Source: Bacillus sp. ISL-55 (GTDB lineage: Bacteria; Bacillota; Bacilli; Bacillales; Cytobacillaceae). Taken from it: DNA of 40,726 nucleotides. Shown in pieces: positions 6,606-40,726 of the stretch. The notes beneath the pieces are model-generated. The model made no database searches, was not told the DNA's origin, and worked only from the letters and a program-made list of their open reading frames with translations. Location of the stretch: NCBI RefSeq assembly GCF_018613155.1, contig NZ_JAGGQU010000023.1, positions 1 to 40,726 on the forward strand, given 5' to 3'. Position 1 is the first letter of the stretch, and the number at the start of each line of letters is the position of its first letter. Both the position numbers and the translations under genes were made by a program.

Positions 6606-6638
6606 TAAAAAAGAACTAGTCCGAGGACTAGTTCTTTT
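6606..6638. terminator. Bidirectional terminator between nitroreductase and FrnE-like genes
   Basis: A perfect 13-bp stem (AAAGAACTAGTCC with GGACTAGTTCTTT, loop GA) is flanked by A and T runs. The TAG stop codon of the minus-strand gene lies inside the stem. Confidence 0.9.
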
Positions 6639-7332
6639 CATTAGGAATTTCACAGCCATCATCATCACAAATCATTCCGTCATCATTGTTCAAAACAGTG
6701 ATTTGATTTTCTGCAATGACTTTTTTCAGCGACTGAACGATTACATCAGTCGGCTGTGCGCCTGTTATGGCATACTTCTTATTGATCAGGAAGAATGGCA
6801 CACCTGTGATGCCATACTGCTGGCCAGTGCTTTCATCAGCACGGACTTCATCCGCCATATCACCGCTTGCAAGCATTTCCTCTACAGCTCCACGATTCAA
6901 TCCCACTTCTACGGCCAATTCCGTCAATGTTTCATGGTCCCCAATATGTTTCGATTCAGTAAAATAGGCACGTAAAATTCTTTCGGTCATCTCTGCCATC
7001 ATTCCATGTTTTTTTGCAAACATCGTCAAACGGTGAGCATCAAATGTATTCGTTAAAATGAGCGTGTCGATATTATATTCCAGGCCGGATTCCTTCGCCA
7101 TTTGCACCATATTTTGCGTGCTTGCTTTCGCCTGGGCAATGCTCATCCCATATTTTTTTGAGAGAGCTTCATACATATTGTAATCGATGTCCCGCTTCAT
7201 GTTCGGATCAAGCTCAAAGCATCGATACGTCACTTCAATTGGGTGATCAATCTGTTTAATAGCGTCATCCAGACGCCTTTTGCCAATATAGCAGAACGGT
7301 CAAGCAAAGTCAGTCCACATTTCAATCTGCAT
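6628..7332 (-). CDS. FrnE-type DsbA family oxidoreductase with in-frame TGA at the catalytic Cys (candidate selenoprotein)
   Basis: Read from ATG 7332 (GGAGG eight bases upstream) the frame gives MQIEMWTDFA, then TGA at 7302-7300, then PFCYIGKRRLDDAIK and an uninterrupted sequence to TAG, 234 codons in all. FrnE-type thioredoxin-fold proteins have CPFC or CPWC at this point, so the TGA replaces the nucleophilic Cys and would give UPFC. The cis-Pro loop GITGVPFF (about residue 179) and a C-terminal Cys-x4-Cys (residues 222 and 227), seen in other FrnE proteins, are intact. The only alternative start is a GTG at 7233 without a ribosome binding site; it would delete the active site. A stem-loop suited to a bacterial SECIS lies at 7262-7276. 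The alternative is a pseudogene from one Cys-to-stop substitution. No selenium-pathway gene is in the window. Confidence 0.75.
7260..7278 (-). promoter_or_regulatory. Candidate bacterial SECIS stem-loop
   Basis: On the minus strand GCGTC-TGGAT-GACGC forms a 5-bp stem with a 5-base loop, extendable by a G-U pair and, past one mismatch, two A-U pairs. The loop carries GG, and 28 bases separate the TGA from the loop. Bacterial SECIS elements known from other systems have a small stem with G in the first loop positions, roughly 16-37 bases after UGA. The same bases encode RRLDDA, so coding constraint could also produce a hairpin. Confidence 0.55.
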
Positions 7333-7441
7333 TATGGATACCTCCAGTTGGTTATTTCACACTATAGTATAGGTGTTAACCTGGTAAAATACACGAAATT
7401 CGACTCGGGAGTGCAAGCTCACCAATGCAGATAGTGCTTAT

Positions 7442-13080: not shown

Positions 13081-13099
13081 TAAAACTGGCTTTTAAATA

Positions 13100-13137
13100 A
13101 CGTGGTTCGTAACCATCCCACGTAAAAAAACTAGGAG
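13100..13137 (+). ncRNA. preQ1-I riboswitch
   Basis: ACGTGG and CCACGT form the P1 stem around GTTCGTAACCATC, followed by the A-rich tail TAAAAAAACTA that runs into GGAG, the ribosome binding site of queT. This matches the small preQ1 class I aptamer, an H-type pseudoknot. The A-rich tail pairing in the bound state would hide the ribosome binding site, so preQ1 should repress translation. Confidence 0.9.
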
Positions 13138-13146
13138 AGATCAAAA

Positions 13147-13632
13147 ATGAATACGAGAACGATTGTCCGGAACGGGATCCTGGCTGCTTTATATATAGCC
13201 GTTTCTGCCGTCATCCAGCCATTTGGCTTCACAAATGTGCAATTCCGCATATCGGAAATGTTCAACCACTTAATTGTTTTCAATAAGAAATATTTCTTTG
13301 GAATCGTATTGGGTGTATTTTTAACAAATCTGCTCTTTTCGCCAATGGTCGCATACGACCTTGTCTTTGGAGTCGGCCAGTCTGTCATTTCCTTGCTGAT
13401 CACGATTTTCACAGCAAAATATATTCAAAGCATTATCGGCCGCATGATTGTGAATACAGTGGTCTTCACCTTCACGATGTTCCTGATTGCGATTGAACTG
13501 AACCTGGCATTCCAATTTCCATTCTGGTTCACATGGCTGACAACGGCTGCAGGTGAATTCACGGTAATGGCTATAGGTATCCCTGTTATGCTAGCGATTC
13601 ACAAGCGCGTAAACCTTGAAAAATTGGTGTAG
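13147..13632 (+). CDS. queT: Queuosine precursor ECF transporter substrate-binding subunit QueT
   Basis: The 161-residue, highly hydrophobic protein has five or six membrane helices and the QueT signature NGILAALYIAVSAVIQPFGF with QFRISEMFNHLIVF. QueT is the S-component of an energy-coupling factor importer for queuine/preQ1-type 7-deazaguanines; the shared ATPase module is encoded elsewhere. The preQ1 riboswitch overlapping its ribosome binding site independently supports this substrate. It is monocistronic, ended by a hairpin at 13645. Confidence 0.92.
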   Translation: MNTRTIVRNGILAALYIAVSAVIQPFGFTNVQFRISEMFNHLIVFNKKYFFGIVLGVFLTNLLFSPMVAYDLVFGVGQSVISLLITIFTAKYIQSIIGRMIVNTVVFTFTMFLIAIELNLAFQFPFWFTWLTTAAGEFTVMAIGIPVMLAIHKRVNLEKLV

Positions 13633-40570: not shown

Positions 40571-40726
40571 AGAAAAGCGGAGGCGATTGCCCAACTCCGA
40601 CAAGCGTTGCCCGCCTAAAAACGCCACGTCCTGTGGCTGGCGGGTCTAGCACATCGTGTGCCTCGGAGGGCCTGGCAGTGAAGTCGTTCTTTGACTTCAT
40701 TGACAGGACCGAAATCGAAAAGTATA
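40571..40726 (+). repeat. Dispersed structured repeat, copy C (divergent, cut by the window edge)
   Basis: Adjacent to copy B, this copy keeps GACAAGCGTTG and GAAGTCGTTCTTTGACTTC but carries about 50 bp of extra sequence in between, itself foldable (CCCGCC with GGCGGG). It runs to the end of the window. Confidence 0.7.

Follow-up and report, generated by a model that had tools for sequence, protein, structure and literature searches.

The window analysed here is a 40,726-nucleotide stretch of Bacillus sp. ISL-55 (contig NZ_JAGGQU010000023.1). On its reverse strand, a frame of 234 codons runs from an ATG at 7332-7330 to a TAG at 6630-6628, with a single internal stop, a TGA at codon 11 (Table 1). 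The initial annotation had placed this one TGA (7302-7300) exactly on the first Cys of a CPFC motif and had held the remaining landmarks of the gene to be intact. Both statements were borne out, and GGAGG, Cys14, TGVP at codons 176-179 (which we take to be the cis-Pro loop) and C222-x4-C227 could all be located.

Table 1. Features of the codon-11 TGA gene and its immediate surroundings, in window coordinates
Feature	Position	Strand	Basis or remark
FrnE/DsbA-type gene, predicted selenoprotein	6628..7332	-	234 codons + TAG; Pfam and PDB matches
In-frame TGA, codon 11, predicted selenocysteine, in place of the first Cys of CPFC	7300..7302	-	Alignment to FrnE and relatives
TGC, Cys14, second residue of the UPFC redox pair	7291..7293	-	Read from frame
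SECIS-like hairpin, 6-pair stem, UGGAU loop	7261..7277	-	22 nt after UGA; conserved in relatives
TGVP, presumed cis-Pro loop of the thioredoxin fold, codons 176-179	6796..6807	-	Read from frame
C222-x4-C227, C-terminal Cys pair as in FrnE	6652..6669	-	Frame and FrnE alignment
GGAGG ribosome binding site, 5' of ATG	7341..7345	-	By eye
Terminator-like inverted repeat AAAGAACTAGTCC-TC-GGACTAGTTCTTT, then more T	6610..6637	-	By eye

The product matches the Pfam DSBA family (PF01323) with a score of 158 bits (cut-off 25.6), and its best PDB matches are FrnE structures, with D. radiodurans FrnE (5cnw) aligning over residues 2-233 (E 1.2e-55) and its first catalytic Cys falling on codon 11. Both features of FrnE are present, namely the CxxC site, with a predicted Sec for the first Cys, and the C-terminal Cx4C. 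The DSBA match begins at residue 2, so there is no room for a signal peptide, and the protein is probably cytoplasmic. NCBIfam release 20.0 gave three weak matches to the protein and none over cut-off. At the 3' end of the gene, a terminator scan that required a loop of 3-8 returned no terminator-like sites. A promoter scan returned 4 sites against 2.4 in shuffles, from which we claim no promoter.

The gene neighbourhood was considered as a clue to function and rejected, since no partner is conserved across the window and 75 further loci of at least 6000 bases: the most frequent neighbour cluster appears in 11 of these 76 loci. A search of the whole window against Rfam at the gathering threshold returned only a PreQ1 riboswitch (RF00522, 51.4 bits) at 13096-13140 (+) and a Bacillaceae-1 RNA (RF01690, 39.7 bits) at 40599-40662 (+). 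The riboswitch lies directly 5' of an ORF at 13147-13632, presumably a QueT-type transporter gene.

For alignments and counts among relatives, we took the best 80 of the 113 loci found. TGA stands at codon 11 in 79 of these 80, and the other, L095, carries TGT. Within the genus, a match that spans the whole gene and contains a single TGA occurs in 19 of 21 genomes; in G001 the copy is split, with the TGA still at codon 11 of the first piece, and G012 has only a Cys form (47% identical). Among the matches listed (to about E 3e-66), a match with TGA occurs in 98 of 193 family genomes, with an additional TAA inside the matched stretch in 2 of the 98. A class-wide sample of 398 genomes yielded 13 matches at E<=1e-80, a threshold that favours close relatives and omits more distant Cys forms, and all 13 have the TGA (3 from the same genus and 10 from five other families). 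The initial annotation would have fallen had relatives carried Cys codons and the TGA been private to this strain, and these counts show the opposite. In the aligned FrnE homologues both the TGA and the hairpin described below are kept, a recurrence that is more than chance.

We considered whether a Cys codon had simply become a stop in this strain or a recent ancestor, through pseudogene formation or a sequencing error. The stop does lie early in the frame, standard ORF calling begins after it, and the genus does include a split copy (G001). However, this reading sits poorly with the TGA in 79 of the best 80 of 113 loci and, among the matches listed, in 98 genomes of the 193 in the family, and its presence in many separate assemblies makes a sequencing error very unlikely. 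For the part of the gene 3' of the UGA, pairing the window with each of ten relatives gave dN/dS values of 0.034-0.113 in nine of the ten pairs (the tenth has saturated dS), a sign of purifying selection, and both the retained hairpin and the synonymous constraint reported below likewise argue against a decayed gene. We consider this explanation highly improbable.

As the initial annotation had foreseen for standard gene calling, the mechanical table-11 ORF opens at GTG 7233 and lacks the active site. Taken at face value, this ORF would mean that translation starts at GTG 7233 or nearby, leaving the TGA in an untranslated leader. Two observations stand against such an internal start. A Shine-Dalgarno-like word precedes codon 1 in 70 of the 80 loci (best 80 of 113) and precedes codon 34 in none; 9 of the 10 loci lacking the word contain five or six consecutive G, a stretch outside the pattern used. 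In addition, protein identity between the window and 79 relatives is higher at codons 2-10 (91.6%) and 12-27 (88.1%) than at codons 28-205 (77.6%), so the stretch 5' of the UGA is also under selection. There is thus scarcely any chance that the internal start is the true one.

Downstream of the UGA lies a hairpin with the sequence GGCGUC-UGGAU-GACGCU (7277-7261 on the reverse strand). The GCGTC/GACGC stem and UGGAU loop that had been proposed here were recovered, but the proposed spacing required correction: the 28 nt run from the UGA to the loop, and the stem itself begins 22 nt away if six pairs are counted and 23 nt away for the five-pair core. A hairpin just 3' of the UGA with a G in a small apical loop is a described feature of bacterial SECIS elements (excerpt of PMC1088965), and both are present.

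We compared this region in 112 sequences, comprising the window, 80 loci (best 80 of 113) and 31 others, of which 96 have TGA and 16 have Cys; some sequences recur almost unchanged in more than one collection, and the same contig underlies L095 and L170. Counted with the pair that closes it, the loop reads CTGGANG (C-UGGAN-G as RNA) in all 96 TGA sequences and in none of the 16 with Cys. The stem is complete, with six pairs, in 86 of the 96 TGA sequences, against 0 of 16 with Cys; the incomplete stems in the TGA set have five pairs (8 sequences) or four (2 sequences), and two Cys sequences form five.

For covariation we used 48 sequences hand-picked as less alike (47 distinct), with L095 left out, and 97.5% of their stem cells pair. 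Cells changed on both sides numbered 14 (3.4 in shuffles) and the covariation score was 0.217 (0.145 in shuffles), values reached in 0 of 500 shuffles each, although kinship can inflate both. The number of stem pairs with a double change (2; 155 of 500 shuffles as high) and the number of pair types (419 of 500) did not exceed shuffles, and covariation of the hairpin is therefore limited. One double change replaces CGT (Arg) with CAT (His) at codon 20 and is matched by GAC to GAT at codon 23, which keeps the helix and alters the protein. RNAalifold also proposed a helix closer to the UGA (columns 10-13 with 19-22), which showed no covariation and was dropped as evidence. Synonymous diversity in 12-codon windows was lowest in the window starting at codon 10, at -0.37 relative to expectation in 80 sequences and -0.36 in 56 less alike ones. 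The mean over all windows was about -0.03, the standard deviation for windows starting beyond codon 27 was 0.024, and the drop spans about codons 10-25.

The machinery for selenocysteine, on which the initial annotation depended, is complete in the host genome (a 4.52 Mb draft of 69 contigs). We found tRNA-Sec (58.3 bits, over cut-off, anticodon TCA), selA (563.2 bits), selB (364.5 bits) and selD (394.9 bits), the last with its own in-frame TGA followed by a predicted hairpin. An in-frame TGA is present as well in each of two formate-dehydrogenase-like genes, one over and one under the family cut-off, and in both cases a hairpin with a GGUCU loop is predicted after it; these genes and selD occupy the host loci L041, L138 and L142. 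Directly after the tRNA-Sec gene, an Rfam match to STnc490 (60.6 bits, cut-off 56) covers positions 1653-1764 of locus L024, which is odd for a Gram-positive genome and perhaps reflects only terminator-like hairpins. None of selA, selB and selD was detected near the codon-11 TGA gene by tblastn in the 80 loci with flanks (best 80 of 113).

Across the family, selA is present in 172 of 193 genomes and in 97 of the 98 with the TGA form; the one TGA genome without a selA match (G179) is 81% complete and has selB over cut-off. The association between selA and the TGA form gave a Fisher p of 3e-6, and of 0.024 once a single genus accounting for 13 of the 21 selA-less genomes was removed, both values ignoring descent. 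Of the TGA genomes belonging to other families, 10 of 10 had selB over cut-off. None of five selA-less controls (G060, G061, G108, G165 and G177) showed a selB match at E<=1e-65. Together, selA or selB is present in 108 of the 108 TGA genomes examined. Another 75 family genomes have selA and no TGA form among the matches listed, which indicates that the Sec machinery serves other genes too.

If the UGA were decoded as a standard amino acid such as Trp by a normal tRNA, or simply leaked, the result would be a full-length protein without selenium. UGA followed by C is a leaky stop context, as occurs here, and partial readthrough is compatible with the sequence. However, the TGA stands precisely on the catalytic Cys, selA or selB accompanies it in all 108 genomes examined, and the Cys form found inside the Sec clade has no hairpin of this kind. 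Readthrough without selenium accordingly has very little to recommend it.

We conclude, with a probability of about 0.97, that the gene is intact and encodes a selenoprotein from the FrnE branch of DsbA proteins, probably located in the cytoplasm, in which UGA codon 11 would be read as selenocysteine. The conserved TGA, the machinery, the hairpin, the dip in synonymous diversity, the low dN/dS and the loss of the hairpin in the nested Cys form L095 jointly make a pseudogene, a sequencing error or an internal start very unlikely. An in-frame UGA at a redox-active position with known Cys homologues is itself a feature of bacterial selenoproteins. The initial annotation's reading, a Sec-encoding TGA in an FrnE-type DsbA oxidoreductase, is supported, and none of the computable outcomes that it had named as refuting was observed.

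In the mechanism we propose, SelB carrying Sec-tRNA(Sec) would decode codon 11 with the hairpin 22 nt downstream as its guide, giving an active site of Sec11-Pro-Phe-Cys14. In excerpts of PMC8945050, D. radiodurans FrnE is described as a disulfide reductase of the cytoplasm, in which the C-terminal Cx4C contributes to regenerating the active site. By analogy, the Sec selenolate may attack its substrate, a disulfide or a small thiol in oxidised form, Cys14 may resolve the Se-S intermediate, and C222-x4-C227, where present, may relay electrons and help to regenerate the site. The Cx4C tail is out of frame in 11 of the 80 loci (best 80 of 113), so the relay would not be needed everywhere. In these loci (L110, L114 and L116-L124) the ORF ends around codons 211-215, and in L110 the Cx4C can be read in another frame. 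According to the same excerpts, disrupting D. radiodurans FrnE sensitises cells to cadmium and diamide (PMC8945050), and a DsbA-family protein of Listeria with CPFC reduces GSSG (excerpt of PMC10715225). A role in oxidative or metal stress may be expected for the protein described here.

To follow the Sec and Cys forms, we built a quick tree from 60 of 107 distinct proteins with codon 11 excluded. The tree calls for at least three changes between Sec and Cys, three being forced by well supported branches. L095, with its TGT codon, is nested in the Sec clade and has lost the hairpin, and reads as a Sec-to-Cys reversion. The genome that holds L095 and L170 (G026) is 88% complete and has selA, with no selB match at E<=1e-65; this may be an assembly gap. 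L155 and L156, from two other families, have a TGA and a CUGGAUG loop on a different stem and adjoin Cys forms in the tree, a placement which suggests that Sec was gained a second time or that they represent an old Sec form. The Cys form L159 joins the Sec side basally through a long branch, and we are unsure of its placement.

Among the matches listed, a second one at E<=1e-60 accompanies the TGA form in 9 of the 98 family TGA genomes. Of the 93 other family genomes, with G001 and G026 set aside, 81 have a listed match, which we take as the Cys paralogue. The two forms therefore tend to replace each other (Fisher p 5e-30, ignoring descent). A wider history can be sketched tentatively, although we would put it at well below even odds: Sec-FrnE could be an old and common form in Bacilli that largely replaces Cys-FrnE genome by genome and helps to keep Sec decoding in use. 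Two lineages that share one apical loop could each have gained or retained it, with reversion to Cys when Sec decoding decays, and Sec might allow the Cx4C relay to be lost in some lineages.

That thioredoxin-fold proteins with Sec at this position are known as a class, as the initial annotation stated, agrees with published DsbA-like UxxC and FrnE selenoproteins (PMC1088965, PMC3965025), represented here, like the other accounts below, by excerpts. A study of the Sargasso Sea described nine DsbA-like selenoproteins of COG2761 with UXXC (PMC1088965), a 2006 survey placed members in Deltaproteobacteria and Clostridia (PMC1794560), an ocean survey counted 63 'DsbA 1' UxxC proteins (PMC2398784), a 2016 survey reported 45 DsbA-like selenoproteins in 41 organisms (PMC5029168), and reviews of 2022 and 2026 list DsbA-like UxxC proteins (PMC9312934, PMC13188914). 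SelenoDB 2.0 names FrnE (DsbA) (PMC3965025), and Sec-FrnE is present in some green algae (PMC6627142). In the main-text excerpts covered from the literature on selenium in Bacilli and on DsbA/FrnE selenoproteins, no Bacilli branch of Sec-FrnE is named.

The gene occurs in many Bacilli genomes, where ordinary ORF calling drops the active site, and a single correction would mend many annotations. The branch combines naturally occurring Sec forms with one natural revertant to Cys and with Cys paralogues, and is a good setting in which to ask what selenium gives a thiol oxidoreductase.

The gene shares with the DsbA-like selenoproteins (COG2761/PF01323, UxxC; excerpts of PMC1088965, PMC1794560, PMC2398784, PMC5029168 and PMC13188914) the Pfam domain, Sec as the first residue of the redox motif and a SECIS-like hairpin with a loop G, whereas the members described there come from marine metagenomes, Deltaproteobacteria and Clostridia, although Bacilli may be among the 41 organisms of PMC5029168. 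The Sec-FrnE proteins of SelenoDB 2.0 and green algae resemble it as FrnE proteins with selenocysteine, and differ in being eukaryotic in the excerpts cited (PMC3965025, PMC6627142). D. radiodurans FrnE (5cnw and others; excerpt of PMC8945050) matches residues 2-233 with its CPWC and C-terminal Cx4C aligned, but has Cys at the first position, where the gene here has a predicted Sec. The Cys-FrnE paralogues of related bacilli (L022 and L157-L169) are about 47-55% identical with a CPFC active site, but have TGT or TGC at codon 11, lack the CTGGANG loop and lie mostly in genomes without the TGA form. The gene belongs to a published selenoprotein class and is a new branch rather than a new kind. 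To that class our comparison adds a large Bacilli branch without an NCBIfam model over cut-off, one probable Sec-to-Cys reversion and a putative second Sec lineage.
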